DNA of 27,853 bases from positions 6,749 through 34,601 of the IMG/VR virus record IMGVR_UViG_3300030430_004151. The stretch is one strand, 5' to 3'. Below the pieces are notes generated by a model, which saw nothing but the letters and a program-made list of their open reading frames with translations, was not told the DNA's origin and made no database searches. Below are positions 12,274-27,853 of the stretch, in pieces. A program made the position numbers and the translations under genes. Position 1 is the stretch's first letter. Each line of letters starts with the position of its first letter. Source of the stretch: a virus.

Positions 12274-12283
12274 TGCTTAAGCA
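12274..12283. other. Perfect 10-bp palindrome at the convergent gene junction
   Basis: TGCTTAAGCA spans the 5-nt gap between the converging oxygenase and adhesin stops. It has no T-tract and only a 5-bp stem, so it is not a convincing terminator, although no other terminator is visible here. Confidence 0.3.
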
Positions 12284-14064: not shown

Positions 14065-14745
14065 TTATCTCTCCAAAGTTTTTAATTCATCTACTTCTGA
14101 TTTAAGTTCTTTGATTGCTTCGATTAATAATGGAACGAGTTTATGATATTGTACTGATTTATACCCAGAATCTTGATCTTTGACTATTCCAGGTAATCCG
14201 AGTGCTTCAATTTCTTGTGCAATTATACCAGTATCTTCTCCTTCATAATAAGAATTTCCTTCCTTCCAAGTAAATGTATTACCACTAATTGAAAGCACCT
14301 TAGCAAGAGGATCTTCAATAGGTGTGATGTTATCCTTTAAGTTTTCATCTGATGAAGAATAGAAAGCAGTAATATCTCCAGTTACACGTAATGCTCCAGT
14401 AATATCTATACCTGTACTAAGAGTCTTTAATTTTTCATTACCACTAGCAGCATGACATAGTTTTACCTCACCAGTAGAGTGAGTCATGACTATAAAATTA
14501 TCGCCATTACTCTTTTCAAATACCATTTGATTGCCAGCAATTTGCAATCTCAAATCATCACCACTTCCAGTTGATACGTTATGTAAAATTTTACTGATTC
14601 CGCTAGAAGTGTGTTGTATTGATAATTCTCCTGAATTTCCTAATTTTATAGAATTAGAATCATTCAATTGTAAACTATCACTAGTGGGCAATTCTTGTAT
14701 CTGATTTGCATCACTATTAACTATCAGGGGGATTCTATCTGCCAT
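14065..14745 (-). CDS. Short tail fibre with C-terminal S74 intramolecular chaperone
   Basis: 226 residues. The N-terminal ~125 (ADRIPLIVNSDANQIQELP onward) is a small beta-rich fibre segment. Residues ~130-226 are a Peptidase_S74 chaperone: SDENLK places Ser132 and Lys137 in the S-D-x-x-x-K arrangement of the self-cleaving Ser/Lys dyad, followed by DTGIIAQEIEALGLPGIV, YKSVQYHKLVPLLIEAIKEL and a short coiled coil. In this family the chaperone trimerises the fibre and then cuts itself off just before the serine. Here cleavage would leave a fibre of only ~131 residues, unusually small. A late-type CATAAATA lies 24 nt upstream. The stop abuts the adhesin start. Confidence 0.88.
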   Translation of the reverse strand: MADRIPLIVNSDANQIQELPTSDSLQLNDSNSIKLGNSGELSIQHTSSGISKILHNVSTGSGDDLRLQIAGNQMVFEKSNGDNFIVMTHSTGEVKLCHAASGNEKLKTLSTGIDITGALRVTGDITAFYSSSDENLKDNITPIEDPLAKVLSISGNTFTWKEGNSYYEGEDTGIIAQEIEALGLPGIVKDQDSGYKSVQYHKLVPLLIEAIKELKSEVDELKTLER

Positions 14746-14768
14746 TGATATATAAAGACTTTTGTTTC

Positions 14769-14776
14769 TATTTATG
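14769..14776 (-). promoter_or_regulatory. Late-promoter-like CATAAATA (minus strand)
   Basis: Reads CATAAATA on the minus strand, 23 nt before the fibre ATG, one base from the T4 late consensus. It is the only promoter-like element for the leftward tail genes. Confidence 0.55.
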
Positions 14777-14795
14777 TTATTAAAAATAAAGGATT

Positions 14796-14803
14796 CTAAA
14801 TAA
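14796..14803 (+). promoter_or_regulatory. CTAAATAA element 1
   Basis: First of three identical CTAAATAA octamers that precede small plus-strand genes in this region (others at 15082 and 15732). It lies 30 nt before the ATG at 14834. It may be a variant phage promoter element; function not shown. Confidence 0.4.
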
Positions 14804-14833
14804 GAATGATTTGGTAAATTGAAAATTATTAAA

Positions 14834-15085
14834 ATGTTAGTTATTAAGTGTAAAGTTTGTAATACAGAGTTAAGTAATAAGAGTAAAAAATCTCAATGCT
14901 GCGGTTGTCCAAATATGACCAGTATTTTTGATGAGAAGATTACAGCAAAAGACTTGTCAAAAGTTTTGATAGTCAATTCTGGTGTCAAAAAAAGTAAAAG
15001 AGATGCTCTAACTGACTCTGAATTACAATGGCAAGAGCAAAGAAGAATGAGAAAAGTTCGTCGGTTAGATTTTGAAATTCGCTAA
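14834..15085 (+). CDS. Small zinc-ribbon-like conserved protein
   Basis: 83 residues from ATG 14834; a TTG at 14819 adds five residues but lacks support. The N-terminus is LVIKCKVCNTEL and then KSQCCGCPNM, a CxxC ... CCxC cysteine pattern suited to zinc binding. The C-terminus is a charged helix (WQEQRRMRKVRRLDFE). The layout matches a small conserved protein of marine T4-like phages whose function I do not know. Size and basic tail are compatible with nucleic-acid binding or a transcription modifier, which is inference. No strong Shine-Dalgarno is visible. Confidence 0.7.
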   Translation: MLVIKCKVCNTELSNKSKKSQCCGCPNMTSIFDEKITAKDLSKVLIVNSGVKKSKRDALTDSELQWQEQRRMRKVRRLDFEIR

Positions 15086-15089
15086 ATAA
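15082..15089 (+). promoter_or_regulatory. CTAAATAA element 2
   Basis: Second identical octamer, overlapping the stop codon of the zinc-ribbon-like gene (TAA at 15083-15085), 71 nt before the next ATG. Confidence 0.35.
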
Positions 15090-15160
15090 AAATACTTAGA
15101 TCAATAACTTGTCGTGGAGAAATAGACGAGGAGATCATAAGGGAAGAATTTTTTACCAGA

Positions 15161-15298
15161 ATGGATATTCAAAAAGAATTAAAAAATGTTCATAAAAAGT
15201 TAGAAGATATTGAGAAAAAACAAGAAATGTTAAATCGAATACAAGAATTAGAGAGGATTCGTGAGGAAACCCAAGCAAAGAGACCTACTGGACATTAG
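15161..15298 (+). CDS. Small coiled-coil hypothetical protein
   Basis: 45 residues: MDIQKELKNVHKKLEDIEKK, then QEMLNRIQELERIREETQ and AKRPTGH. Leucine/isoleucine spacing suggests a short coiled coil. The frame stays open upstream to 15086 without a standard start codon. AGGGAA (15140-15145) is 15 nt from the ATG, too far for a normal ribosome-binding site, and GAGGAG (15128-15133) is farther. Either initiation is weak or a non-standard start is used. Function unknown. Confidence 0.55.
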   Translation: MDIQKELKNVHKKLEDIEKKQEMLNRIQELERIREETQAKRPTGH

Positions 15299-15316
15299 GT
15301 AAAACTTTGCTATAAT
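15289..15316 (+). promoter_or_regulatory. Sigma-70-like promoter with extended -10
   Basis: TGGACA (15289-15294), 16-bp spacer, TATAAT (15311-15316) with an upstream TG (TGCTATAAT). It overlaps the stop of the coiled-coil gene and lies 23 nt before the membrane-protein ATG at 15340. The near-consensus match suggests early transcription by host RNA polymerase. Confidence 0.65.
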
Positions 15317-15339
15317 ATAGATATTAAAAAATACAAATC

Positions 15340-15723
15340 ATGATCAGAACTTTATTTACAGAATTTCCTGTATCTGATGTTCCTGTAGAAAGGAGTATTA
15401 GTCAGGAGAAGATCAAAAAGTATACTTACTCCAAAGCAGAAGTAGATGTGCTCATTGATGCTGCTGTTGAAAAGGCTGTTGCTGAAGCAAGAAGAATTGA
15501 TGAAGAGTCAATGGCAAAGCACAATCGTGATGCTACTGTCATCAGTATGATTCTTGGATTCACAACTCTTGCATTATTTGTAGACGGTTTGTTAAGAATG
15601 TTGGGAATCATTCCACCCTTTATGGAGATCGATATTAACATCCTAGATAAGATAGAAACAGATATGATAGATAAGATAAAACAAGTTCCTGTACAAAAAT
15701 TATTTCAACACGGTTTCAGATAA
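15340..15723 (+). CDS. Single-span membrane protein, unknown function
   Basis: 127 residues. Residues 30-60 are a charged alanine/glutamate helix (SKAEVDVLIDAAVEKAVAEA). Residues ~66-92 are one hydrophobic span (ISMILGFTTLALFVDGLLRM) followed by GIIPPF. The C-terminal 35 residues form an amphipathic acidic/basic helix. There is no signal peptide; topology is probably N-in. The near-consensus sigma-70 promoter just upstream suggests early expression, so host-membrane interaction early in infection is possible. I do not recognise a family with known function. Confidence 0.7.
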   Translation: MIRTLFTEFPVSDVPVERSISQEKIKKYTYSKAEVDVLIDAAVEKAVAEARRIDEESMAKHNRDATVISMILGFTTLALFVDGLLRMLGIIPPFMEIDINILDKIETDMIDKIKQVPVQKLFQHGFR

Positions 15724-15731
15724 TAAAATAA

Positions 15732-15739
15732 CTAAATAA
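15732..15739 (+). promoter_or_regulatory. CTAAATAA element 3
   Basis: Third identical octamer, 21 nt before the ATG at 15761, in the 37-nt gap after the membrane-protein gene. Confidence 0.4.
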
Positions 15740-15760
15740 ATTGATATATTTTTTTATTCA

Positions 15761-15901
15761 ATGGATAAGGAACCTAAATTTAAAGTAACTTTTGATGGAT
15801 GCTATAATTATAAAAAACTTAAGGATGAAGGATTAGTCGATGATAATTCAGAAGATGATCCGATAGTTCTTATACACACCACACATAATGACGGTTGTTA
15901 A
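15761..15901 (+). CDS. Small acidic hypothetical protein
   Basis: 46 residues: MDKEPKFKVTFDGCYNYKKL, then KDEGLVDDNSEDDPIVLIHT and THNDGC. There is no recognisable domain and no good Shine-Dalgarno. It is supported mainly by filling the gap between two promoter elements and by its CTAAATAA leader. It could be a non-coding spacer instead. Confidence 0.45.
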   Translation: MDKEPKFKVTFDGCYNYKKLKDEGLVDDNSEDDPIVLIHTTHNDGC

Positions 15902-15916
15902 AGTGTCACATTTATC

Positions 15917-15945
15917 TTGACTTAATTTTTAAATTAATCTATAAT
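15917..15945 (+). promoter_or_regulatory. Sigma-70-like promoter TTGACT-17-TATAAT
   Basis: TTGACT (15917-15922), 17-bp spacer, perfect TATAAT (15940-15945), 23 nt before the ATG at 15969. Near-ideal host-type promoter, probably early, serving the small genes at 15969-16408. Confidence 0.75.
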
Positions 15946-15968
15946 GTGTATGTAAATGATTCAAAGCA

Positions 15969-16175
15969 ATGACGCTTACTACTAAATTCAAAAAAGATCT
16001 CAACACTCTTAAAGCAGCTGCCGAAAGAGAAATTTATTTGGATGTAAAACATCCCAAATTATATAAAAAGGTATGTAGATACTATCAGAATGAAGTTGAG
16101 TTAGTTGGAGAAGATCCAGATGCAGATTATAATTTAATCATTGAGTGCATCAAACAAGATTTAGCGGAGGTTTAA
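15969..16175 (+). CDS. Small conserved hypothetical protein
   Basis: 68 residues, charged and helical: MTLTTKFKKDLNTLKAAAER, then EIYLDVKHPKLYKKVCRYYQ and an acidic tail ending CIKQDLAEV. It sits behind a near-consensus sigma-70 promoter, so early expression is likely. It resembles a small protein common in T4-like cyanophages. No catalytic or binding motif is visible; function is unknown. Its end precedes the next ATG by 5 nt. Confidence 0.7.
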   Translation: MTLTTKFKKDLNTLKAAAEREIYLDVKHPKLYKKVCRYYQNEVELVGEDPDADYNLIIECIKQDLAEV

Positions 16176-16180
16176 TTATT

Positions 16181-16408
16181 ATGATTGAAGTGATTCGTCA
16201 AAAAGATCCTTACAGGTATGTGAAGATGCCTGATCTACTTGAGAATGGTCAACCAGACTATCGTATTCAGAAATGGAATAATTATAATGGTTACAAAGAT
16301 ATGTACCTTTGTGATAATTGGATGCAAATGAAAACAGCTATTCAAGATTTTGAATACACAAAATGGTTAGATCCTGCAGGTGTACCTTGTTATATTAAAG
16401 ACGAATGA
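16181..16408 (+). CDS. Small conserved hypothetical protein
   Basis: 75 residues from ATG 16181, chosen because GGAGG (16166-16170) lies 10 nt upstream; a GTG at 16145 would overlap the previous gene by 31 nt. The protein is rich in aromatic residues ([20 protein letters not shown], then [16 protein letters not shown]) and Pro/Gly turns. No motif is recognised. Its stop overlaps the first gene of the sugar cassette by 4 nt (ATGA). Confidence 0.65.
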
Positions 16409-16743
16409 AATATGAAAGACCTTGGGGATGGTATATAACAATTGATGAGGGGTATGGGTATAAGGTAAAAAGAATAGAAGTTAAACCTAATGCAAAACTT
16501 TCATTACAGTTGCACCATCATCGTGCAGAACATTGGATAGTTGTAAAAGGAACTGCTTTGGTTGAAGTGGGTAAAGATCAAATAATACTACACGAAAATC
16601 AAAGCACTTATATTCCTATAGGATCAAAACATCGACTTTCAAATCCAGGTTCAATACCTCTTCAGATAATTGAAGTTCAAAGTGGAATGTATCTTGAAGA
16701 AGATGATATTGTCAGGTTTGAAGATTCTTATGGAAGAAGTTGA
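16405..16743 (+). CDS. Cupin phosphomannose isomerase-like protein (type II MPI domain)
   Basis: 112 residues, a single cupin corresponding to the C-terminal isomerase domain of ManC/type II mannose-6-phosphate isomerases. It starts with ERPWGWY and has [20 protein letters not shown] (H37-H39, E42, H43), [14 protein letters not shown] with H76, and closes [20 protein letters not shown]. It would interconvert fructose-6-P and mannose-6-P, feeding GDP-mannose synthesis. The GDP-mannose pyrophosphorylase half is absent and no pyrophosphorylase or phosphomannomutase is in the window, so host enzymes would have to complete the route. It opens the glycan cassette, before the sigma-70-like promoter. 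Confidence 0.85.
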
Positions 16744-16768
16744 CAATTTGTGTAGATAGTAGTAATAT
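16740..16768 (+). promoter_or_regulatory. Sigma-70-like promoter TTGACA-17-TAATAT for the glycan cassette
   Basis: Perfect -35 TTGACA (16740-16745) overlapping the stop of the cupin gene, 17-bp spacer, TAATAT as -10 (4 of 6 bases). AAGGAA follows just before the ATG at 16796. Placement in the only sizeable gap of the cassette suggests it drives the downstream operon early in infection. Confidence 0.6.
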
Positions 16769-16795
16769 AGATATATTATTACTCAAGGAAAAAAA

Positions 16796-17875
16796 ATGAG
16801 TCAATACAAAAAAACAGCATTAGTATTAGGTGCAGGTGGATTCATCGGTAGTCATATGGTGAAGAGACTTCGTTCTGAGGGATACTGGGTACGTGGTGTT
16901 GATCTTAAAGAACCAGAGTTTTCAAAAACAGAAGCAAATGAATTTGTTATCGGTGATTTAAGAGAAGTTAGTTTTGTTCGTCGTGTAATTCAATTCAAAG
17001 GTTATCAAGGTAACTTTTATAATTCAGTCCCATATCGATTTTTAGAATCATTCGATGAGATTTATCAGTTTGCTGCTGATATGGGTGGTGCAGGTTTTGT
17101 ATTCACTGGTGAAAATGATGCAGATATTATGCATAACTCTGTATCAATTAACTTAAATGTTCTTGAGGAGCAACGTAAATTTAATGAAGATTATAAAGTA
17201 AATAAAACAAAAATATTTTACTCTGGTTCAGCATGTATGTATCCAGAGCATAATCAACTTGACCCTAATAATCCTGATTGTCGTGAATCATCAGCATATC
17301 CAGCAGACCCAGACTCAGAGTACGGATGGGAGAAACTCTTTTCTGAACGTCTATACCTCGCTTACAGTCGTAATTACGATATTCCTGTGCGTATTGCCAG
17401 GTATCATAATATCTTCGGACCAGAAGGAACTTGGGAAGGAGGTAGAGAAAAAGCACCAGCAGCAATCTGTAGAAAAGTAGCTTATGCAGGTCTTGCCGAT
17501 ACTATCGAAGTATGGGGTGATGGTGAGCAGACTCGATCATTCCTTTACATTGATGAATGTATTGAAGCAACACGTAGATTGATGGAATCTGATTTTATAG
17601 GACCTGTGAATATTGGTTCAGAAGAGATGGTTACTATTAATGAGTTAGTAAGAATAACTGCAAAAGTAGCACACAAATCTATAGGCAGAAATCACATTGA
17701 AGGTCCTTTAGGTGTTCGTGGACGTAACTCAAATAATGATCTCGTTAGAGAAAAATTAGGATGGGATTATTCACAACCTCTTGAAGAAGGTATTCGCAAA
17801 ACTTATGAGTGGATTGAAGAGCAAGTAGAACCATTAAAAGCAGAGGAGGATCTCGAATTACTTTATAATTCATAA
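16796..17875 (+). CDS. GDP-mannose 3,5-epimerase homologue
   Basis: 359 residues, extended SDR. GAGGFIG (12-18) binds NAD. Features shared with plant GDP-mannose 3,5-epimerase (GME) are unusually complete: AADMGG, SACMYPE with C147 (catalytic acid/base), EYGWEK with Y176 and K180, RYHNIFGP, GGREKAPAA with K219 (second acid/base), WGDGEQTRSF, FIGPVNIGSEEMV and GPLGVRGRNS. GME converts GDP-D-mannose to GDP-L-galactose (and GDP-L-gulose). An apparent insertion of ~20 residues (about 66-86, GYQGNFYNSVPYRF) precedes AADMGG. GDP-mannose is the natural substrate of the family; a GDP-heptose is an alternative here. It overlaps the next gene by 1 nt. Confidence 0.88.
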   Translation: MSQYKKTALVLGAGGFIGSHMVKRLRSEGYWVRGVDLKEPEFSKTEANEFVIGDLREVSFVRRVIQFKGYQGNFYNSVPYRFLESFDEIYQFAADMGGAGFVFTGENDADIMHNSVSINLNVLEEQRKFNEDYKVNKTKIFYSGSACMYPEHNQLDPNNPDCRESSAYPADPDSEYGWEKLFSERLYLAYSRNYDIPVRIARYHNIFGPEGTWEGGREKAPAAICRKVAYAGLADTIEVWGDGEQTRSFLYIDECIEATRRLMESDFIGPVNIGSEEMVTINELVRITAKVAHKSIGRNHIEGPLGVRGRNSNNDLVREKLGWDYSQPLEEGIRKTYEWIEEQVEPLKAEEDLELLYNS

Positions 17876-18723
17876 TGAAAGTTGCTATTCTTGGTTCAAG
17901 TGGTCAGATAGGTGCATATCTTACAGAGTATCTTCGTAAAAAAGAACATTTAGTAAGAGAATTTGATATTGTAAATGATCCACATGAAGATATGACTCAC
18001 ATCCCAAATCCATTTTTACGAAATGTAATTATGGATTCTGATTTTGTTTTCTTTCTTGCATTTGATGTTGGTGGTTCACACTATCTAAAGAAGTACCAAC
18101 ATACTTTTAAGTTTCTTGATAATAATGCAAGAATGATGGCAAATGTTTTTGGTCATTTGAGTGATTATAAAAAACCATTCGTATTTGCATCATCTCAGAT
18201 GAGTAATATGAGTTACTCTCCATATGGTGTGATGAAAAGAGTTGGTGAGATGTATACAAAATCTCTAGATGGATTAATTGTTAAGTTTTGGAATGTATAT
18301 GGCATTGAAAATGATATGGAGAAAGCACATGTAATCACAGATTTTATACGAAAAGGGTTTGAAACTGGCATTATAGATATGATGACAGATGGAACTGAAG
18401 AAAGGGAGTTTCTTTATGCCGAAGACTGTTGTGAAGCGTTGGAGTCCGTTATGCAAAACTATGATCGACTCACTTCTAATGACGAACTTCATATTACTAC
18501 TGGTAATTCCACAACTATATTGGAAATTGCACAAAATATACAAAAATTATTTTCCAACATTGGAAAAGAAGTTGTAATTAAACCAGCAGATTCTAAAGAT
18601 GAAGTACAGAAAGATGCTAGAAATGTATCAGATCCTTACATACAAAAATTTTGGAGATCTACAACTTCAGTAAAAGAGGGTTTGACAAAAGTATTTTATG
18701 AAATGAAAAAAAATTATGAGTAA
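17875..18723 (+). CDS. NAD-dependent sugar epimerase/dehydratase (extended SDR)
   Basis: 282 residues. GSSGQIG (7-13) is the dinucleotide-binding loop, FASSQMS supplies the serine (S106/S107), and Y117-x3-K121 (SPYGVMK) the catalytic pair. KFWNVYG and TDGTEEREFLYAEDC are the standard substrate-domain blocks, so the fold is complete. The specificity is not evident: it is not a clear GDP-mannose 4,6-dehydratase or GDP-fucose synthase. Being next to the GME homologue suggests a GDP- or UDP-sugar substrate. It overlaps the GT10-like gene by 8 nt. Confidence 0.8.
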   Translation: MKVAILGSSGQIGAYLTEYLRKKEHLVREFDIVNDPHEDMTHIPNPFLRNVIMDSDFVFFLAFDVGGSHYLKKYQHTFKFLDNNARMMANVFGHLSDYKKPFVFASSQMSNMSYSPYGVMKRVGEMYTKSLDGLIVKFWNVYGIENDMEKAHVITDFIRKGFETGIIDMMTDGTEEREFLYAEDCCEALESVMQNYDRLTSNDELHITTGNSTTILEIAQNIQKLFSNIGKEVVIKPADSKDEVQKDARNVSDPYIQKFWRSTTSVKEGLTKVFYEMKKNYE

Positions 18724-19516
18724 GTTTAAATTTAATCTTTATTGTAATGATACATTAGAACCATCAAGTTCTGATAAAAATACACCAAAATATGTAGAAT
18801 GGGATTATCACGGAAATGGTGATGTTAATTTATATGTTAGTCAAAGAGCTCTCGATGCGATTAATGATAGATCAGGAAAACCAACTTATATTTGGTTATT
18901 AGAATCAAGACAAATTATTCCTCAATTTTATGATTGGGTTTTGAATAATTATGATTTTGTGATGTCAAGAGTTGATGGTATTTTTAGTTGTGATGAATCT
19001 GTTTGTGAAAAGTATGAAGGTGTATCTTATGGTATTACAAACGCAGCACCTTGGGTAGTAGATAGACAGATCTATAAAAAAACTAAATTAGTATCAATGA
19101 TTGCATCAAATAAAAGAATGTGTGAAGGTCATTTAAAAAGATTATCTTTCGTTGATAAGTTCAGAGATAAATTAGATTTTTATGGTCGTGGTTTTAACGA
19201 AATATCTTGTAAAGAAGAAGGATTGAAAGATTATATGTTTTCTGTTGGTATTGAAAATGCAGTTTATGATACTTACTTTACAGAAAAACTAACAGATTGT
19301 TTTGCTTGTGGGACGATTCCAATATTTTACGGGTGTAGAGGAGTTACAAAATACTTTAATGAAGATGGTATTATATTTTTAGATGACAACTTTGATTTAT
19401 CTACCTTGACAGAAGACTTATATTACTCTAAAATAGAAGCAGTAAAAGATAACTTTGAAAGAGCTATCAATTTTCCAGTTGCGGAAGACTATCTTTATAC
19501 AACTTATTTTAAGTAA
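18716..19516 (+). CDS. Glycosyltransferase, GT10 fucosyltransferase-like
   Basis: 266 residues. The C-terminal half has the GT10 donor-site blocks: IASNKRMCEGHLKRLSFVDK (129-148), similar to the xxSNCxxxxxR..xV motif, and GIENAVYDTYFTEKLTDCFA (178-197), matching FENSxxxDYVTEKLYDAL, followed by CGTIPIFYGC. In this family these residues bind GDP-L-fucose (alpha-1,3/1,4-fucosyltransferases). The protein is shorter than most bacterial GT10 enzymes and lacks a membrane anchor, so it acts in the cytoplasm. The actual donor may be another GDP-sugar. A 3-nt gap separates it from nadE. Confidence 0.75.
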   Translation: MSKFKFNLYCNDTLEPSSSDKNTPKYVEWDYHGNGDVNLYVSQRALDAINDRSGKPTYIWLLESRQIIPQFYDWVLNNYDFVMSRVDGIFSCDESVCEKYEGVSYGITNAAPWVVDRQIYKKTKLVSMIASNKRMCEGHLKRLSFVDKFRDKLDFYGRGFNEISCKEEGLKDYMFSVGIENAVYDTYFTEKLTDCFACGTIPIFYGCRGVTKYFNEDGIIFLDDNFDLSTLTEDLYYSKIEAVKDNFERAINFPVAEDYLYTTYFK

Positions 19517-19519
19517 CTT

Positions 19520-20296
19520 ATGAACCGTATAGAAAGTTATCCAAAGTTAACAATTGATATTGTAAAATGGATAAAAGATTATTATTACTATAATAATATT
19601 GACACTCTTGTTGTTGGTGTGTCTGGTGGAATTGACTCTGCTGTTGTATCTACATTATGTGCAGAGACAGGTCTTCCAACTTATGTGATTACTATGCCAT
19701 TAGATTCAAAGAAAGAGAATACTGAGTTGTCAAATTTACATGCTAAAGAACTTGATGAGAAGTATGAAAATGTCGAAATTTTAGATATAGATTTATCAGG
19801 AGTATTTCATACTTTAATCTCTACTATAGGACTTCAAACAAGTAAAGAAGGATATACTTATAATCGAGATTTAATTACGAATGAACATTCAAATGCGAAT
19901 ACTAAATCAAGATTACGTATGGTAACTCTATATCAGATTGCAGGTTCAGTTGGTGGTATCGTTGTTGGTACAGGAAATAAGGTAGAAGATTATGGTGTAG
20001 GATTCTATACAAAGTATGGTGATGGTGGTGTTGATATTGCACCGATTGCTGATTTATATAAAACTGAAGTATGGGAATTAGGAAAACATTTAAAAGTCAA
20101 TGAACTTATAATCAAAGCTAAACCAACTGATGGTTTATGGGGTGACTCAAGAACTGATGAAGATCAACTTGGAGCATCATATGAACAGTTAGAAGAGGCA
20201 ATGGAATATGGCACAGGTCCTGCTGTAAAAATATTGGGTGAATATAATGAAAGAAATAAACATAAAATGAATCCTATACCTACATTTAAATTATGA
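19520..20296 (+). CDS. nadE: NH3-dependent NAD synthetase
   Basis: 258 residues, single-domain type without a glutaminase module. SGGIDS (35-40) is the ATP-pyrophosphatase PP-loop. ANTKSRLRMVTLYQIA and GTGNKVEDYGVGFYTKYGDG, then IAPIADLYKTEVWELG, are the family signatures for NaAD and ATP binding. It converts nicotinate adenine dinucleotide, ATP and ammonia to NAD. Its place inside a sugar cassette between a GT and an NAD-linked dehydrogenase suggests NAD support for those enzymes or restoration of NAD during infection. A related PP-loop amidotransferase acting on a sugar is a weaker alternative. The stop overlaps the next start (ATGA). Confidence 0.88.
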   Translation: MNRIESYPKLTIDIVKWIKDYYYYNNIDTLVVGVSGGIDSAVVSTLCAETGLPTYVITMPLDSKKENTELSNLHAKELDEKYENVEILDIDLSGVFHTLISTIGLQTSKEGYTYNRDLITNEHSNANTKSRLRMVTLYQIAGSVGGIVVGTGNKVEDYGVGFYTKYGDGGVDIAPIADLYKTEVWELGKHLKVNELIIKAKPTDGLWGDSRTDEDQLGASYEQLEEAMEYGTGPAVKILGEYNERNKHKMNPIPTFKL

Positions 20297-21459
20297 AAAT
20301 AGGAGTTATTGGAGCAGGAAGATTAGGAATATGTTTTGCTCTTCTTTGTGAAGCAGCAGGATATGAAGTAGTCGTTTCTGATATTAGAGAAGATTATGTA
20401 AATGATCTCAATCAAAGAAAAATTGAAACTACTGAACCAGAGGTAGAGAATCTTTTAAAGGTAGCAAAAAACTTTAGAGCAACCACAAGCAATCAACAAA
20501 TTATTAGAGAATGCGATTTAATTTATACACTAGTACCAACACCATCATTAGAAGATGGTTCTTATGATGTATCTGCAGTTTGGGAAGTTGTAGAAGATTT
20601 CAAACAAGAAATGAAAATAGCAAACTATCCTAAAAATTTTATTGTAGGATGTACGACAAATCCTGGTGATTGTGAATTGTTCCGAAAAGAATTACCACAG
20701 AGTGTAAGTGTATATTATAATCCAGAATTTATTGCACAAGGATCGATTGTTAGAGATTTGAGAAAAGCAGATATGGTTCTACTTGGATACAGTCCTTCTA
20801 ATTCTGAATATGAAAAAACAATATATGAAATTGAAGAGTTATATAAAAAGATACAAACAACCAGAGCAATCGTTTGTGTGATGTCAAATACATCTGCAGA
20901 GATTACAAAGATAGCTTTGAATTGTTTTCTTACAACTAAAATCAGTTATGCAAATATGCTTGGTGATGTTTTAAGAAATGCTGGTTGTGGAGATGAAATA
21001 CCAACTGTATTGAGTGCAATTGGAACTGATAGTCGAGTCGGTAGAAAATATCTTAGATATGGATTCGGTTATGGCGGTCCTTGTTTCCCTAGAGATAATA
21101 GAGCATTTGCTTCATTTGCAAAAAATGTTGGTTTAGATTATAATTTAGGATATGTTACTGATGCAATCAATAATCAACATGCTAAATTATTATGTGATTA
21201 CTATGATCAAGTCAACGAAAATCTACCTTTCTTTTTCTCATATATAACTTACAAGAAAGGAACTGACATCTTAACTGAAAGTCAACAATATCGTTTGTGT
21301 ATTGATCTTTTAGATAGGGGTCGCAAGGTTTACATTCAAAATGATACTCGTGTCATACCACAAATTAGATCTGAACTAATTGATAAGTATGGAGATAGAG
21401 TAAAAATTGTAGATAACAAAGAAAACATTACTGAAAAGATTTTTATTATTGAATTATGA
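20293..21459 (+). CDS. UDP-glucose/GDP-mannose-type 6-dehydrogenase
   Basis: 388 residues, the usual family length. GAGRLG (7-12) begins the NAD domain. YNPEFIAQGSIVRDL, NCFLTTKISYAN (K216, N221) and GYGGPCFPRD with catalytic C264 are the family signatures. A C-terminal YKKGTDILTESQ matches the FKxxTDDIRES donor-domain motif. It would oxidise the C6 hydroxyl of a nucleotide sugar to the uronic acid in two NAD-dependent steps. UDP-Glc, GDP-Man and UDP-ManNAc cannot be told apart by eye. It is a large NAD consumer directly after nadE, overlapped by 4 nt. It overlaps the following GT11 gene by 4 nt. Confidence 0.9.
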   Translation: MKIGVIGAGRLGICFALLCEAAGYEVVVSDIREDYVNDLNQRKIETTEPEVENLLKVAKNFRATTSNQQIIRECDLIYTLVPTPSLEDGSYDVSAVWEVVEDFKQEMKIANYPKNFIVGCTTNPGDCELFRKELPQSVSVYYNPEFIAQGSIVRDLRKADMVLLGYSPSNSEYEKTIYEIEELYKKIQTTRAIVCVMSNTSAEITKIALNCFLTTKISYANMLGDVLRNAGCGDEIPTVLSAIGTDSRVGRKYLRYGFGYGGPCFPRDNRAFASFAKNVGLDYNLGYVTDAINNQHAKLLCDYYDQVNENLPFFFSYITYKKGTDILTESQQYRLCIDLLDRGRKVYIQNDTRVIPQIRSELIDKYGDRVKIVDNKENITEKIFIIEL

Positions 21460-22316
21460 TTGGATATGATAGATTAGGTTGTAATGGTCGTCTGGGTAAT
21501 CAGATGTTTCAATATGCAGCATTAAGAGGTATTGCTGCAAAAAGAAATTTTGAATGGAAAATACCTCCAGAGGATTATGACCATACAGCTAACTATGGTC
21601 TTTTTGAAACATTTGAAATGTCAGATGTTAAAGAAAATAATTTTGGATTTATCAATGGTGAAATTGCATCAGAAAATGATCACTGTTTTATTGAAGAATT
21701 TTTTACTGAATGTCCAGACAATATATCTTTAGATGGTTTCTTTCAAACAGAAAAATATTTTAATCATATAGAAGATCAAATTCGTAAAGAGTTTACATTC
21801 AAAGAACAATATTTAAAACCTTGTAGAGATTATATTGATTCACTAGATAAAGCACCTATTTTTTTACATATTCGCCAAGCAGATAATATAGGAAGAGAAC
21901 AATATCATCCAATACTACCTATATCATATTTTGAAGAATGTCTTCAAGAATTTCCAGAAGATACACCTTGTTTTGTTTTTACTGATGATTTGAATTGGTG
22001 TAAATCTCAAGATTACTTTAATCAAGATAAGTTTTTATTTAATGAAAATGCCGACAGGTATGACTATGTAAGTATGGATGGTCTTGGTAAAATGCAGAAT
22101 ACATTGTTACCACAAGTTGACTTATGTTTGATGTCTTTGTGTTCTGGTGCTATAATAGCAAATAGTTCTTTCTCTTGGTGGGGTGCTTGGTTGCAAAATG
22201 ATCGTGGAAAAGTGATTGCTCCAGATCCTAAAAAATGGTTTGGAACATCAATGACACATTTGGATACATCAGATGTTGTACCTGAACGTTGGTTAATTAA
22301 AGAATGGAGTAAGTAA
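21456..22316 (+). CDS. Glycosyltransferase GT11-like (alpha-1,2-fucosyltransferase fold), copy 1
   Basis: 286 residues. GRLGNQMFQYAALRG (11-25) is the GT11 motif near the N-terminus, DLCLMSLCSGAIIANSSFSW and WGAW (222-244) the closing motif. The donor-binding HxRRxD motif reads HIRQAD (138-143), with the second Arg replaced by Gln. GT11 enzymes transfer L-fucose from GDP-fucose to form alpha-1,2 linkages. The substitution may shift donor preference or lower activity. First of three paralogues in 4.1 kb. The gene is followed by an FkbM-like methyltransferase (1-nt overlap). Confidence 0.88.
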   Translation: MIGYDRLGCNGRLGNQMFQYAALRGIAAKRNFEWKIPPEDYDHTANYGLFETFEMSDVKENNFGFINGEIASENDHCFIEEFFTECPDNISLDGFFQTEKYFNHIEDQIRKEFTFKEQYLKPCRDYIDSLDKAPIFLHIRQADNIGREQYHPILPISYFEECLQEFPEDTPCFVFTDDLNWCKSQDYFNQDKFLFNENADRYDYVSMDGLGKMQNTLLPQVDLCLMSLCSGAIIANSSFSWWGAWLQNDRGKVIAPDPKKWFGTSMTHLDTSDVVPERWLIKEWSK

Positions 22317-23014
22317 TGCTTGATTATAAAACTTTAAGTTATGCAAATGACATTGGAGCAGGTGGTCTTCAAGATATATTTGCTATGATTGTTTTTGGTA
22401 AAGAATACAAAGGAACTTTTGTTGATATTGGATGTCGTCATCCAGTATTACATAGTAATAGTTATTTGTTGGAACAATATGGTTGGAAAGGATTTGCAGT
22501 TGACTTAGAATTTTATACTCCAGAGTGGAAACAATATAGACCAAATTCTGTATATAAAAATATGGATGCTTTTATGGTAAATTATGAGCAACAGTTTAAA
22601 AATTTAGAAATGGAATCACCAATAGATTTTCTTTCTGTTGACTTAGAACTTCCTGGTGAAAGATTGAATATATTAAAAAAAGTATTTGAAACTGGTTATG
22701 AATTTAAAACGATTACAATTGAGCATGATGCATATTGCCAACCAGTAGAATTAGAAAAAATACCGCAAAGAGAATATCTCACAGAAAAAGGATATACTCT
22801 TGTAAGGAAAGATGAGATTATTGAAGACTTTTGGATTAATCCAAAGTATATTAATGAGGATCAATATCAATTATTAAAATCACATAATACTGGTCCTGAA
22901 GAAATACATCCTTGGATATTTTTAAAACAAGAACATAATTATGATTGGATGCACTTCTATGATCAAATAGATTTTAATAGTATTCCTGAATTTGTAGACT
23001 CTAAACCTTATTAA
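22316..23014 (+). CDS. FkbM-like SAM-dependent methyltransferase
   Basis: 232 residues. The core FVDIGCRHPVLHSNSYLLEQ (35-54) has the SAM-binding glycine-containing loop and the N/S-rich helix of the FkbM family; GFAVDLE follows as the second acidic motif, and PIDFLSVDLELPGERLNIL and ITIEHD the later strands. FkbM-type enzymes often O-methylate sugar hydroxyls in glycan clusters. Acting on a glycan product of the neighbouring transferases is likely but inferred. No signal or TM segment. Confidence 0.75.
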   Translation: MLDYKTLSYANDIGAGGLQDIFAMIVFGKEYKGTFVDIGCRHPVLHSNSYLLEQYGWKGFAVDLEFYTPEWKQYRPNSVYKNMDAFMVNYEQQFKNLEMESPIDFLSVDLELPGERLNILKKVFETGYEFKTITIEHDAYCQPVELEKIPQREYLTEKGYTLVRKDEIIEDFWINPKYINEDQYQLLKSHNTGPEEIHPWIFLKQEHNYDWMHFYDQIDFNSIPEFVDSKPY

Positions 23015-23018
23015 TACA

Positions 23019-23906
23019 ATGACTATATCATTTAATGGACTTGGTAATGAAGGTCGTCTTGGCAATCAAATATTTCAATATGCTTTCATTCGTGGATTAG
23101 CTGCAAAAACAGGATACGATTGGATGATACCACCAGATGGATCTAGTCGTTTTGATAATTATGGTTTATTTGAATGCTTTGAATTGACTGGATGTAAACA
23201 AACTGGAGAAGGATCATTTCAAACATTAGAATGTAGAGATACTTTATTTCATCCAGAAATATTTACAGATGCAAGAGATAACATTAATTATTCTGGAACA
23301 TATCAAACAGAAAAATATTTTGAACATATTGATACTGAGATAAGAAAAGATTTAACTTTTCAAAAGGGTTACTTAGAACCCTGTCAAGAATTTATTGATA
23401 GTCTTGGTGGCAGAGATAATTGTATATTTCTACACGTACGTAGAGGAAATCCAAACATAACAGGAAGAAGAGGAGAAAAATGGTCATATCAAATGCTACA
23501 GGAGTATCATCCATTATGTAAGAAAGAATATTATATTGAAGCACTAAAAAAATTTCCAAAAGATAAAAATGTAATTATTGTTTCAGACCTTATTGATTGG
23601 TGTAAGAAACAAGATTGGTTGCAAGAGGATAGATTTTATTTTTCTGATTCTTCTTATGAAACTTTTGGTGATGGTGCAAGTGTTCCATATATTGATTTAT
23701 GTTTGATGTCATTATGTGGTGGCGGTATTATTGCTAACTCATCATTATCATGGTGGGGAGCGTGGTTACAAAATAATACTGGTAAAATAGTTGCTCCTGA
23801 TCCTTGGTATGGATCAGCAAATGCACATCTTGATACAAAAGATCTAATACCAGATAGATGGATAAAAATTCATAATGATCCTACACCAATTACTCCAGAA
23901 GAATGA
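23019..23906 (+). CDS. Glycosyltransferase GT11-like, copy 2
   Basis: 295 residues. EGRLGNQIFQYAFIRG is the N-terminal motif, IDLCLMSLCGGGIIANSSLS and WWGAW the C-terminal motif. The donor motif reads HVRRGN (139-144), with the final Asp of HxRRxD replaced by Asn and followed by an unusual Arg/Gly insert (PNITGRRGEKWSYQMLQEYH) absent from copy 3. Both arginines that grip the donor diphosphate are kept. Fold and family are clear; donor specificity is not. It forms a pair with the GT-A gene downstream (4-nt overlap), repeated in the next two genes. Confidence 0.88.
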   Translation: MTISFNGLGNEGRLGNQIFQYAFIRGLAAKTGYDWMIPPDGSSRFDNYGLFECFELTGCKQTGEGSFQTLECRDTLFHPEIFTDARDNINYSGTYQTEKYFEHIDTEIRKDLTFQKGYLEPCQEFIDSLGGRDNCIFLHVRRGNPNITGRRGEKWSYQMLQEYHPLCKKEYYIEALKKFPKDKNVIIVSDLIDWCKKQDWLQEDRFYFSDSSYETFGDGASVPYIDLCLMSLCGGGIIANSSLSWWGAWLQNNTGKIVAPDPWYGSANAHLDTKDLIPDRWIKIHNDPTPITPEE

Positions 23907-24703
23907 ATTTAACATTTCTAATTCCAGTTAAAATTGAATCAGAAGATCGTGTAAGAAATCTTACTACAGTATTGACGTATATACTGAATAAGTTTGATGC
24001 AAAAATTTTAGTTCAAGAACATGATAAAGTTCAAAGATTTAATGATCTTATTCTACCTAATATTCCTAAATCAGATAATATTGAATATACTTTTGATCTT
24101 CAAACAAATAATTATTTTCACAAAACCAAAATACTTAATGATCTTTTATTGAGATCTGATACTGAAGTTGTCTGCAACTATGATACTGATGTTCTTCTTC
24201 CAGAAAAAACATATACAGAAGCATATCGATTAATTAAGAGTAAACAATATGATGCTGTGTATCCATATGGTTGCGGTATTTACCAAAAAGCTGTAACATA
24301 TACACAGGAAACTTTTGAAAAGTTTTTAAATTCAGACTTAAATGTTCAGAGTTTGGATAAACATGCTAGAATACATAACTCAACTATTGGATGGTGTCAG
24401 TTTGTTCGTAGGGAAAATTACATTAAATCATTTATGATGAACGAAAATTTTCATGCATGGGGTCCTGAAGATTCTGAATTTTATTATCGATTGAGTGTGC
24501 TTGGTAATCGAATAGCTCGAATAAATGATTTTGTATATCACTTGGAACACTCAAGATCAAATGATTCTTGGTTTTCAAATCCTCTATGGAGAGAAAACAC
24601 ACAACTCTGGCATTGGATTCAATCTCAATCTGGAGAAACTTTTTTGAACTATTATCAAAATCAAGATTATTATAAAAGGAGATTGAAAGATGTTAGGTCT
24701 TAA
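23903..24703 (+). CDS. Glycosyltransferase, GT-A fold, copy 1
   Basis: 266 residues. The N-terminus (LTFLIPVKIESEDRVRNLTT) is the first GT-A strand and donor loop. YDTDVLLP (93-100) is the DxD motif (D94, D96) that binds the metal and nucleotide sugar. NFHAWGPEDSEFYYRLSVLG (182-201) with WGPED is the C-terminal acceptor/catalytic block of galactosyltransferase-like (GT7-type C-terminal) enzymes. It ends YHLEHSR. Family assignment beyond GT-A/GT2-like is uncertain. It is paralogous to the gene at 25493. No membrane segment. Confidence 0.8.
   Translation: MNLTFLIPVKIESEDRVRNLTTVLTYILNKFDAKILVQEHDKVQRFNDLILPNIPKSDNIEYTFDLQTNNYFHKTKILNDLLLRSDTEVVCNYDTDVLLPEKTYTEAYRLIKSKQYDAVYPYGCGIYQKAVTYTQETFEKFLNSDLNVQSLDKHARIHNSTIGWCQFVRRENYIKSFMMNENFHAWGPEDSEFYYRLSVLGNRIARINDFVYHLEHSRSNDSWFSNPLWRENTQLWHWIQSQSGETFLNYYQNQDYYKRRLKDVRS
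24676..24681 (+). promoter_or_regulatory. Strong Shine-Dalgarno AAGGAG for the third GT11 gene
   Basis: AAGGAG inside the end of the GT-A gene, 8 nt before the ATG at 24690, supporting this start despite a 14-nt overlap with the preceding gene. Confidence 0.6.
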
Positions 24704-25496
24704 TTATCTTGGAAAGATGGGACAACTTGGTAATCAAATGTTCCAATATGCAGCATTAAAAGGTATTGCTACTAAACATAATTATCAATGGTGTATTCCA
24801 AATCATAAACAAGTAGTTGATGATGGAATAGGAAACAAATTAAGAATCGAATTATTTGATTGTTTTAAATTAGAAAGTGTTCAAGCATTTGGAATGTTGC
24901 ATAATGGTCATGCACCTATTGTGCAAGAAAAACACTTTCATTTTGATAAAGATCTTCTTGAATTGTGTCCAGATGAAATTTCTTTGGTTGGATATTTTCA
25001 GTCTGAAAAATGGTTCAAACATATTGAAAAAGATATAAGAAAAGACTTCCAATTTCACGATGAAATTCTAAGTCCTTGTAAGGAGATGATAGAAGGAGTA
25101 ACTTCTCCAGTGGCAGTTCACATTCGAAGGGGTGATTTTATAATTAATTCTGCAAGACATCATAATTTATCTTTAGAATATTATGAGAAAGCATTAAAAC
25201 ATTTTGATAAAACTTCTACCATTATTGTATTTTCAGATGATCCAGATTGGTGTAAACAACAAAAAGTATTTGATGATGATCATATATTAGTTGCAGAAGG
25301 AAATACAAATTATGTTGATTTATGTTTGATGAGTTTATGTGAGGGACATATAATTGCAAACAGCACTTTTTCTTGGTGGGGAGCTTGGTTAGCAGATAGT
25401 CAAAAAGTTATAGCACCAAGTATATGGTTTGGTGAGGAACTCAAATCAGTAAATGATATTAAAGATCTTTATCCTAAATCATGGGAGGTTCTATGA
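24690..25496 (+). CDS. Glycosyltransferase GT11-like, copy 3 (canonical motif)
   Basis: 268 residues. GQLGNQMFQYAALKG (11-25) opens the fold; the donor motif HIRRGD (144-149) is the canonical HxRRxD, unlike copies 1 and 2; VDLCLMSLCEGHIIANSTFS and WWGAW close it. It would transfer L-fucose or a related GDP-sugar in alpha-1,2 linkage. It starts behind a strong AAGGAG inside the preceding gene. Its stop overlaps the next start by 4 nt (ATGA). Confidence 0.9.
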   Translation: MLGLNYLGKMGQLGNQMFQYAALKGIATKHNYQWCIPNHKQVVDDGIGNKLRIELFDCFKLESVQAFGMLHNGHAPIVQEKHFHFDKDLLELCPDEISLVGYFQSEKWFKHIEKDIRKDFQFHDEILSPCKEMIEGVTSPVAVHIRRGDFIINSARHHNLSLEYYEKALKHFDKTSTIIVFSDDPDWCKQQKVFDDDHILVAEGNTNYVDLCLMSLCEGHIIANSTFSWWGAWLADSQKVIAPSIWFGEELKSVNDIKDLYPKSWEVL

Positions 25497-26317
25497 AGAA
25501 AGATTTAAAAGATTGTACTTTTATTATTCCAATTCGTATTGAATCAACTGATAGACTTCGAAATGTAATTACTATTCTTTGTTATCTTAATTCTAATTTT
25601 GATACTAATATAATAGTAAAGGAAGTAGACAAAGAATCAGTATTCGATAAAGATGCATTACCACAAGTTGAAGAGTATTGTGGGGATGTTTCTAATATCA
25701 AATACATATTTGAAAAATCTGATGATCCAATATTTTTAAGAGAGAAAATTTTAAACGAAATGTTAGTTTTAACATCAACAAATGTTGTTGTTAATTATGA
25801 TTGTGATGTTGTATTTCCAGTAACATCTTACTTGGAAGCATATAGAAAGATTATGGAAAATGAAAGTGATATGGTTTATCCATATGGTGAAGGTCCTTGG
25901 CAATATAAAATTTTCTGTGATGATCAAATGGTATCAGACTTTTTAAATAATGATTATGATTTTAATATTCTAAAAAGAAAATCATATAACGACAATGCAG
26001 GAGAAGGATGGGTGCAGTTTATAAAAAGAGATGTTTACTTTGAAGCAGGTATGGAGAATGAAAATTTTATGGGATCTGCACCTGATGACTTTGAAAGAAG
26101 ATATAGATTTACAACTTTAGGATATAGAGTTGACAGAGTAAATGATTACATCTATCATTTAGAACATAGTCGAGGTATGAATTCTTATCCACAGTCTATG
26201 TCACAGCATCCATATTGGAAACATAACTGGGGATTATGGGAACAATTAAAAGAATATTCCAAAGAACAATTAATTGACTATTATTCAAAACAAGAATACT
26301 TGAACAAATATAATTAA
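25493..26317 (+). CDS. Glycosyltransferase, GT-A fold, copy 2
   Basis: 274 residues from ATG 25493, chosen for the ATGA overlap and GGGAGG just upstream; an ATG at 25481 adds four residues. It is paralogous to the gene at 23903: CTFIIPIRIESTDRLRNVIT, YDCDVVFP with D103-x-D105, GYRVDRVNDYIYHLEHSR. The catalytic block differs: GSAPDDFERRYRF replaces the HAWGPEDSEFYYRL of copy 1, so the Trp-Gly is lost and the acidic pair is Asp-Asp. The copies probably act on different acceptors. It overlaps the kinase gene by 1 nt. Confidence 0.8.
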   Translation: MKKDLKDCTFIIPIRIESTDRLRNVITILCYLNSNFDTNIIVKEVDKESVFDKDALPQVEEYCGDVSNIKYIFEKSDDPIFLREKILNEMLVLTSTNVVVNYDCDVVFPVTSYLEAYRKIMENESDMVYPYGEGPWQYKIFCDDQMVSDFLNNDYDFNILKRKSYNDNAGEGWVQFIKRDVYFEAGMENENFMGSAPDDFERRYRFTTLGYRVDRVNDYIYHLEHSRGMNSYPQSMSQHPYWKHNWGLWEQLKEYSKEQLIDYYSKQEYLNKYN

Positions 26318-27264
26318 TGTACGTTGCATCTTGCCCACTTCGAATCTCTTTGTTTGGAGGTTCTACAGATAACCCTTACTTTGTTGAGAAGTATGGTCGT
26401 GGTTCTGTGATTAGTTTTACATCCACATTAAAAACTTATGTCACTATTAGTCAGGATAAATTTGGTTTTAATAAAGACAAGCACAAATATATTATAAATT
26501 ATTCGAAGAGAGAAGAAGTTTCAAGTATTGATGATATACAGAATGAAGTAGTAAGAACAGTATTAAAGTATTATAATATGCCTCCTGTATTAGTCGCTTT
26601 AACAAGCGATGCGTATTCGCAAGGAAGTGGTTTAGCATCTTCTTCATCTTATACAATTAGTCTTATTAAAGCTTGTTGTTTATTTTTAGGCAAATCAATT
26701 ACAGATAGTGATGCCTGTAAACTTGCATATAATTTGGAAAGAACTTATAACCCTTATTGTGGGTATCAAGATCCATATGGTTGCGGTGTTGGTGGGTTTA
26801 AAAGGATTAATTTTATGGGCGATAACTCTATTACATATGAGTTTCTATCTACTGATATATTTAAGCACTATGATACTCATCTTGTCTTTACTGGTGTTAC
26901 GAGAAACTCGAAGAAAATCCTCAAAGATATTACAGAAAATTTAGATAAAATTAAACCACTTTTAAAGACTGCCGATACTGCATATGATGTTCTACAGTCA
27001 AATGATTATGAAAAATTTTTATATTTAATTGGAAAGAGCTGGCATCAGAAAAAAGAAACATCTTCTACGATTATGGAGAGTGATATTATAATAGAAATGG
27101 ATTATATATTAGAAAAAAATGAAACTGTATGTGCACATAAATTATGTGGTGCAGGTAATGGTGGATTCTTTTTAATATTTTCTGAAAAAGATACCTTGAA
27201 TATTCCACTTCATTGTGTTAAAATAGATATTGAGACATCGGGTGTATATGGTAAATCCATTTGA
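26317..27264 (+). CDS. hddA-like: GHMP kinase, D-glycero-D-manno-heptose 7-phosphate kinase-like
   Basis: 315 residues. PLRISLFGGSTDNP (7-20) is the N-terminal signature of heptose-7-phosphate kinases (HddA). GSGLASSSS (103-111) is the GHMP ATP-binding loop, and HKLCGAGNGGFFLIF (~280) the third motif. HddA phosphorylates heptose-7-P at C1 in the GDP-heptose route. The GmhA-like isomerase directly downstream supports heptose over other GHMP substrates such as fucose or mevalonate. Overlaps the next gene by 17 nt. Confidence 0.82.
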   Translation: MYVASCPLRISLFGGSTDNPYFVEKYGRGSVISFTSTLKTYVTISQDKFGFNKDKHKYIINYSKREEVSSIDDIQNEVVRTVLKYYNMPPVLVALTSDAYSQGSGLASSSSYTISLIKACCLFLGKSITDSDACKLAYNLERTYNPYCGYQDPYGCGVGGFKRINFMGDNSITYEFLSTDIFKHYDTHLVFTGVTRNSKKILKDITENLDKIKPLLKTADTAYDVLQSNDYEKFLYLIGKSWHQKKETSSTIMESDIIIEMDYILEKNETVCAHKLCGAGNGGFFLIFSEKDTLNIPLHCVKIDIETSGVYGKSI

Positions 27265-27754
27265 TGAATACATAGAGACTTTAAAATCTGCACATATGGA
27301 AGTTGAGTTCTTCAAGTTTCAGAAAGCATTTTATACTCACAATAGAATAATAGTATTGGGTAATGGTGGTAGCAACTCTGTTGCTTCTCATATATCTCAA
27401 GATTACATGAAGTTTCATAATAAGAAAGTTTCAATACTTTCTGATCCTTCTATGATCACAATGCTTACGAATGATTTTGGTTATGAGTTTGCATATCAAA
27501 AATTTTTAGAATATTATGTTGAGTCAGATACTCTTGTGATTATTATAAGTTCTGGCGGTGAATCACCAAATATGATTAACTGTTTGAACTGGTGTGAAAA
27601 AGAAAATATAGATTATGGAGTATTGACAGGATTCGAAGGTGATAATACAATAAGAACGGTTGCAAAAAATGCACTTTGGAATTACTATATTGATAGTAGT
27701 AACTATGGTGTGGTTGAGTGTGTACATCAAATTTTTCTTCATGGAGTTGTATGA
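27248..27754 (+). CDS. gmhA-like: SIS-domain phosphoheptose isomerase, GmhA-like
   Basis: 168 residues from ATG 27248; a TTG at 27230 and GTG at 27242 are in frame but less likely. IIVLGNGGSNSVASHISQDY (34-53) is the SIS sugar-phosphate-binding loop and IIISSGGESPNMI (98-110) the second loop. A late VVECVHQIFLHGV supplies the histidine expected near the GmhA active site. GmhA converts sedoheptulose-7-P to D-glycero-D-manno-heptose-7-P, the substrate for the kinase just upstream. The usual active-site Glu after the first loop appears as Asp (QDY), so activity is likely but not certain. It overlaps the HAD gene by 4 nt. Confidence 0.82.
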   Translation: MVNPFDEYIETLKSAHMEVEFFKFQKAFYTHNRIIVLGNGGSNSVASHISQDYMKFHNKKVSILSDPSMITMLTNDFGYEFAYQKFLEYYVESDTLVIIISSGGESPNMINCLNWCEKENIDYGVLTGFEGDNTIRTVAKNALWNYYIDSSNYGVVECVHQIFLHGVV

Positions 27755-27853
27755 ATTATTGTTTTGATTTGGATGGAACTATTTGTGATACTCCATTACG
27801 TAAAGAAGATTTAAAACCAGAATACTTAGAATCAGTACCATTTCCTTATATGG
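27751..27853 (+). CDS. HAD-family phosphatase, 3'-truncated by the window edge
   Basis: Only the first 34 codons are visible. MNYCFDLDGTICDTP is the HAD motif I DxDxT with nucleophile Asp6. It could be the heptose-1,7-bisphosphate phosphatase (GmhB) step that follows the isomerase and kinase, but short N-terminal sequence cannot separate that from a generic HAD hydrolase. The start overlaps the isomerase stop (ATGA). Confidence 0.7.
   Translation, partial: MNYCFDLDGTICDTPLRKEDLKPEYLESVPFPYM

Follow-up and report, generated by a model that had tools for sequence, protein, structure and literature searches.

The operon at positions 16405–27754 of a 27,853-nt stretch of viral DNA (hereafter the window, positions 6749–34601 of the 34,601-base IMG/VR record IMGVR_UViG_3300030430_004151, both ending at the same base) is, with a probability of about one half, a surface-glycan cassette of a T4-like cyanophage, in which a GDP-mannose 3,5-epimerase (GME) would form GDP-L-galactose and transferases of families GT10 and GT11 would transfer an L-galactose-type residue. 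All genes lie head to tail on the plus strand with intergenic gaps of -35 to +52 nt (Table 1). They include, as a first-pass annotation of the sequence had stated, a mannose-6-phosphate isomerase (PMI) cupin, a GME homologue with its key residues, one GT10 and three GT11 proteins; the open reading frames and the operon were as described, and the observation is correct and beyond chance. That inventory had passed over SDR2 (a short SDR of GDP-sugar type), an NAD synthase-like protein (NadE), a nucleotide-sugar dehydrogenase (UGD-like), GT7C-like proteins, a GHMP kinase and a SIS protein. The source is assigned to a T4-like cyanophage by synteny with Kyanoviridae records, given the NrdA/NrdB-like genes (NrdB being nearest to that of Prochlorococcus phage P-TIM68, 87% identity) and a gp61-like primase, which match annotated cyanophage genes.

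The best solved relatives of the window GME are plant GDP-mannose 3,5-epimerases (2c59, E 1.5e-88; 8sg0). The residues diagnostic of the Arabidopsis enzyme in PMC8787198 (S143, C145, Y174, K178, N203, K217, R243 and R306) are kept 8/8, at residues 145, 147, 176, 180, 205, 219, 247 and 310, as mapped by hand on a structure alignment with chain numbering 2 ahead of native; the S-Y-K triad, the Cys/Lys acid-base pair and the equivalents of Arg306, Arg243 and Asn203 are all present. The same source separates GME from Fcl by a Lys instead of a His as base and an Arg instead of a Lys at the Cys-acidifying site, and the window protein has Lys (K219) and Arg (R310). Set beside the known GMEs described there, among them a Methylacidiphilum enzyme, it has all eight residues of the Arabidopsis protein but is viral, with an activity predicted from residues. 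Formation of GDP-L-galactose by the phage enzyme is likely on this basis.

Gene context ties the epimerase to GDP-mannose and not to GDP-heptose. Directly upstream lies the PMI cupin, predicted to convert fructose-6-phosphate to mannose-6-phosphate; its TIGR01479 match is confined to the C-terminal part of that model, its PF01050 score far exceeds the gathering threshold of 23.6, and the S/Q/H/R residues of the isomerase motif (taken from PMC9602691) were spotted by eye in LSLQLHHHR. A cupin is present in 10/80 GME-seeded viral loci (here and below, IMG/VR loci were fetched with flanks of up to 10 kb per side, and for GME and for gmd the 80 best matches, out of some 600 or more in each case, served as seeds). 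In two hosts, Prochlorococcus AG-349-P01 and AG-347-J14, GME is followed by SDR2 and then by a bifunctional ManC/PMI (683 and 691 bits; cut-off 373). By this context, GME would work on GDP-mannose. The first-pass annotation had allowed GDP-heptose as an alternative, which the operon's own SIS and GHMP genes would supply: SIS resembles GmhA, the GHMP kinase resembles HddA (below the cut-off of the HddA model), and GHMP kinases occur in 10/80 GT11-seeded loci. A GHMP gene is found in 1/80 GME-seeded loci, however, and GME accompanies ManC/PMI in the two hosts above. Furthermore, contig L173 (IMG/VR 3300029319_007281), which is 97.8% identical over window positions 14691–27853 and extends 2.1 kb further, continues with a HAD-like (by eye) and CTP_transf_like protein, then an SDR resembling GalE/HldD and a GT25 that is truncated where the contig stops. 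Its nucleotidyltransferase scores 54 bits with each of the TagD and HldE-C models, both under their cut-offs. SIS, GHMP and these downstream genes look like a separate NDP-heptose-like module. Because the nucleotidyltransferase of this module is of TagD/HldE-C type and not of the GDP-forming HddC type, action of the epimerase on GDP-heptose is very improbable, and GDP-heptose was dropped as the principal substrate.

No recognisable GDP-mannose 4,6-dehydratase had been reported for the window, and this holds for the entire 34.6-kb record, where the gmd model (cut-off 415 bits) has 0 matches and the Fcl model (cut-off 500 bits) matches GME (88 bits) and SDR2 (40 bits) alone. The downstream search that the first-pass annotation had proposed returned neither gmd nor fcl in the 2.1 kb by which L173 outruns the window. 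Four complete genomes with related operons (P-TIM68, S-SSM7, S-SCSM2R and Sf-FS3) have no gmd and no fcl, and 0 of 30 records (28 virus contigs, S-SM2 and P-TIM68) exceed either cut-off. When 15 GME-bearing named records were searched whole (one being a 149-kb single-cell sequence), 14 had no gmd over the cut-off, and none of their matches to the Fcl model exceeded 110 bits. Across 19 named phages gmd is above cut-off in four, S-SCSM1, ACG-2014f C8, S-SRM01 and DSL-LC02, with Fcl matches of 422–473 bits; S-SCSM1 is the only one of these with a GME at E 1e-60. The Fcl cut-off itself is passed by 0/19 named phages, 0/201 host-family genomes and 4/14 control genomes.

All three GT11 proteins exceed the PF01531 gathering threshold (23.9), and GT10 exceeds that of PF00852 (23.9), and phmmer matches it weakly to solved structures of alpha-1,3-FucT enzymes; the GT11 profile found no match among PDB sequences. 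For the GT11c model, Foldseek first ranks NodZ, POFUT1, FUT8 and Arabidopsis FUT1 (the top match of each having an E value between 3e-7 and about 5e-6; over the listed rows TM is about 0.5 and rmsd 6–12 Å), which backs a fucosyltransferase fold for this protein. The description of all four transferases as having this fold is therefore backed by a model for GT11c, and is based on Pfam scores for GT10, GT11a and GT11b. In vitro, and in the Arabidopsis mur1 mutant also in vivo, fucosyltransferases accept GDP-L-galactose, which PMC8787198 describes as fucosyltransferase promiscuity. Use of GDP-L-galactose by the four phage transferases is plausible, and the gene set probably enables the virus to decorate a surface molecule with sugars of L-galactose type.

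In S-CAM9, Bellamy, S-PRM1, S-8S56 and SynMITS9220M01 a GT11 gene immediately follows GME. At least 33/37 GME-bearing phage records, GenBank and RefSeq copies being counted apart, have a GT11; the 33 do not include MH319757, MH319723, GU071098 and HQ317391. It is found in 38/80 GME-seeded and 50/80 gmd-seeded IMG/VR loci; gmd/fcl is present in 0/80 of the former and GME in 4/80 of the latter. Among named phages, which had been chosen by their GME or GT11 matches, 14/15 GME bearers are without gmd+fcl, and 3/4 GT11 bearers lacking GME have gmd+fcl. Strict exclusivity of the two supply modules was nevertheless rejected as a rule, as it was not reproduced in fresh GT11 groups. The 80 GT11-seeded loci divide into 48 with GME only, 6 with gmd/fcl only, 6 with both and 20 with neither (Fisher p 0.19). 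Pooled GT11 groups gave p 8e-10 for alternation of GME and gmd/fcl, a seeding artefact given that 132 fresh groups (50 GME, 12 gmd/fcl, 11 both, 59 neither) gave an odds ratio of 1.08 (p 1.0). An initial grouping of loci by shared 60-mers, which chained 482 loci into 67 groups, had been discarded.

A GT11 tree of 127 rows (from 279, after removal of near-copies and rows labelled 'none') requires 19 changes of supply label, against 39 when shuffled; this clustering may be mere co-inheritance. We also looked at residues of the donor pocket, at positions 148, 150 and 226 picked after inspection. F150 is seen in 27/67 GME rows vs 1/35 gmd/fcl rows (119 rows in all) and T226 likewise seemed linked to GME; independent-pair tests of these links gave a median p of 0.125, and T226 failed in fresh rows. 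T148 is commoner with gmd/fcl in both sets (27/62 vs 20/149; 11/18 vs 16/108). None of the three links held up on the pooled tree (median p 1, 0.5 and 0.625 for positions 148, 150 and 226, respectively), and the donor-pocket signature was dropped, no residue having survived both fresh rows and pooled tree.

The distribution of these genes in hosts bears directly on the transferase donor. In 201 genomes from the family of Prochlorococcus AG-409-M05, a centre chosen because it bears GME, that gene (E ≤1e-80) occurs in 1/201, which is the chosen centre itself; a separate scan of genome contigs found it in single-cell genomes of Prochlorococcus, at least four in number (L293, L294, L295 and L299). 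GME thus exists in hosts but is rare. In the same 201 genomes gmd (E 1e-100) is found in 128, of which 124 are above cut-off, and an Fcl-like gene (E 1e-90) in 119. GDP-L-galactose would accordingly be foreign to most hosts and GDP-fucose would not, which keeps alive the explanation that GT10 and GT11 take host-made GDP-L-fucose, with GME feeding another transferase or just competing for GDP-mannose. S-SRM01, DSL-LC02 and ACG-2014f C8, which carry GT11 along with gmd+fcl, are consistent with it, as are the related GT11s that accompany either supply module in the tree. Yet 82/201 genomes gave no Fcl-like match at the E limit applied (genome completeness not stated), GT11 lies directly beside GME in five named phages and the epimerase retains every diagnostic residue, and we consider host fucose as the donor somewhat unlikely. 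Two contigs labelled as Rhodobacteraceae (L296) and Euryarchaeota (L292) metagenome-assembled genomes seem to be cyanophage DNA that was mis-binned: L296 bears an Sf-FS3-like operon with a GME 90% identical to a phage reference GME, and both carry wcaG RNA before GME.

A further explanation, which overlaps with the L-galactose cassette, is that GME and SDR2 jointly make another GDP-L-sugar for the transferases, SDR2 acting on GDP-L-galactose or on the 4-keto intermediate. SDR2 keeps YxxxK and has Gln108 (located by eye) at the position of the GME catalytic Cys. Its model (pLDDT 88.6) is nearest in Foldseek to MlghC, Cj1428, GDP-4-keto-6-deoxymannose reductase and E. coli Fcl, that is, to GDP-heptose 4-reductases and other GDP-sugar reductases, with UDP-sugar epimerases close behind. 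It directly follows GME in the window and in the two Prochlorococcus genomes, and is seen in 33/80 GME-seeded viral loci; contigs of Marinimicrobia and Patescibacteria have it, at 50–53% identity, next to GME or not far from it. The remaining 47/80 GME-seeded loci have no SDR2 within the fetched flanks, often shorter than 10 kb, so GME alone may suffice there; we rate a joint product as rather unlikely. Several observations count against the L-galactose cassette. The host gmd and Fcl-like genes just described mean that host GDP-fucose could serve, GT11 loci are found with GME, with gmd+fcl, with both or with neither, and SDR2 may convert the GME product to another sugar. The most syntenic operon after L173, on G024, has a Gmd-like gene of 373 bits (below the cut-off of 415) about 20 kb from GME, and weaker Gmd-like SDRs occur in G027 (170 bits), Bellamy (165) and SynMITS9220M01 (164). 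Finally, the GT11 consensus motif, HxRRxD, is canonical in 1/3 of the GT11 proteins, GT11c, with HIRQAD in GT11a and HVRRGN in GT11b. Altered motifs (HIRQSD, HVRRGN) recur among other GME-labelled GT11 rows, so those of GT11a and GT11b look like conserved variants and not errors. The Gmd-like gene of G024 adjoins a psbA fragment, recognised by eye.

Taken together, the proposal of a GDP-L-galactose pathway stands as regards an intact GME beside GT10 and GT11, four complete relatives free of gmd/fcl and a GDP-mannose context, and finds no support as regards GDP-heptose. From these genes, their residues and their synteny we infer the following course. The PMI cupin would raise mannose-6-phosphate, from which host phosphomannomutase and ManC would form GDP-mannose; phage GME, judging by its residues, would oxidise this, epimerise it at C3/C5 and reduce it to GDP-L-galactose, and SDR2 may act on this product or on an intermediate. 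An L-galactose-type residue (or, promiscuously, host L-fucose) would then be moved by GT10 and the GT11s onto a host or virion glycan, the remaining sugars of which would be supplied by the dehydrogenase and by the heptose-like module downstream. We postulate a cell-surface glycan of lipopolysaccharide or capsule type, and as its effect a surface change, e.g. superinfection exclusion. A broader proposal is tentative: that cyanophages bring in GDP-L-galactose (or an SDR2 derivative) which nearly all hosts cannot make, that it is the natural donor of these fucosyltransferase-fold enzymes and that it replaces phage gmd+fcl in some lineages. If true, GT10/GT11 would here use GDP-L-galactose naturally, a phage would be importing a sugar chemistry new to its host (GME being in 1/201 host-family genomes), and the cultured phages Bellamy, S-CAM9 and Sf-FS3 would allow a direct look for the sugar.

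The wcaG RNA (RF01761), a riboswitch candidate according to PMC2864571, has no match in the window or its record, either with Rfam or with R1, our own model of this RNA built in the present analysis. In other phages it often forms the leader of GME and gmd genes: of 47 records selected because they bear GME or GT11, 26 have it above cut-off, and in 17 it ends 46–153 nt before GME. R1 detects the RNA in 51/80 GME-seeded loci (15 of them training loci) and in 68/80 gmd-seeded loci (none training). GME and gmd products both use GDP-mannose, hence the idea of GDP-mannose as ligand. Among 80 listed loci, sampled by the RNA pattern alone, 68 have at least 700 nt downstream, and GME or gmd lies within 3 kb in 41/68 (adjacent in 22); in the other 27, hli, porins and dTDP-sugar genes were recognised downstream by eye. 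The claim of a GDP-mannose sensor was rejected, the downstream partners being too mixed, and the papers listed by a literature search on wcaG RNA yielded no ligand. A manA RNA (RF01745, 194 bits) lies at 3667–3854 of L007, a close relative with the PMI cupin, about 5 kb before GME.

Table 1. Genes of the operon, in window positions, with wcaG RNAs of related loci in the last row
Feature	Position	Strand	Evidence
Type II mannose-6-phosphate isomerase cupin, stand-alone	16405..16743	+	PF01050 171 bits
GME homologue	16796..17875	+	2c59 E 1.5e-88; 8/8 diagnostic residues
SDR2, short GDP-sugar-type SDR	17875..18723	+	YxxxK; model and Foldseek
GT10 (fucosyltransferase-family) protein	18716..19516	+	PF00852 44 bits
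NAD synthase-like (NadE)	19520..20296	+	PF02540 159 bits; TIGR00552 169 bits (cut-off 63.65)
Nucleotide-sugar dehydrogenase, UDP-glucose/GDP-mannose dehydrogenase family (UGD-like)	20293..21459	+	TIGR03026 208.6 bits (cut-off 189.8)
GT11a	21456..22316	+	PF01531 62.8 bits; motif HIRQAD
232-aa protein, FkbM methyltransferase-like by eye only	22316..23014	+	Matches no Pfam family
GT11b	23019..23906	+	PF01531 56.7 bits; motif HVRRGN
Glycosyltransferase, galactosyltransferase C-terminal type	23903..24703	+	PF02709 26.7 bits (gathering 23); phrog_15655
GT11c, HxRRxD canonical	24690..25496	+	PF01531 91.2 bits; model pLDDT 92; Foldseek NodZ 3six E 3.4e-7
Second phrog_15655 protein, probable glycosyltransferase	25481..26317	+	phrog_15655 366 bits; weak galactosyl transferase phrog; no Pfam family
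GHMP kinase, HddA-like, second (heptose-like) module	26317..27264	+	NF049969 97.7 bits (cut-off 600); 4n3o E 1.5e-20
SIS protein, GmhA-like, second module	27230..27754	+	GmhA/phosphoheptose-isomerase models ≤50.7 bits, each under cut-off
wcaG RNA in relatives (many more)	L111 5829-5928; L118 9822-9921; L074 9833-9930; L251 9842-9939		

Elsewhere in the window, positions 1796–2899 encode a flavoprotein of the tryptophan-halogenase family (PF04820, 125 bits), and positions 12277–14745 on the minus strand, just upstream of the operon, encode a glycine-rich tail-fibre-like protein (by eye) and an S74-chaperone protein.

The modification had been called not described for a phage, which was too strong: for cyanophage S-SCSM1 (2022), PMC9602691, a paper cited in PMC10665884, names gmd, fcl, GME and an alpha-1,2-fucosyltransferase and gives the GME reaction to GDP-L-galactose, the transferases being ascribed there to fucosylation. 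Among titles and abstract openings of open-licence literature we found no other proposal that phage GT10/GT11 use GDP-L-galactose. S-SCSM1, likewise a T4-like cyanophage, resembles the window in grouping GME, the isomerase cupin and GT11 within a single region, but its own gmd and fcl (569 and 455 bits) adjoin GME, its GME is 62% identical to that of the window, and NadE, UGD and GT10 are not annotated in the stretch compared. The P-TIM68 cluster, from the phage with the nearest NrdB, has GME, NadE, UGD and GT11 ordered alike; it differs in having no SDR2 match, a Glyco_trans_1_2 protein in place of GT10 after GME, and other annotated heptose genes. In Sf-FS3, S-SCSM2R and S-SSM7 methyltransferase or hypothetical genes are interspersed and SIS/GHMP are not annotated in the stretches compared, whereas the order GME, SDR2, GT10, NadE, UGD, GT11 is that of the window. 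Related cassettes are already known in other cyanophages, and the inventory is ordinary for large T4-like cyanophages.

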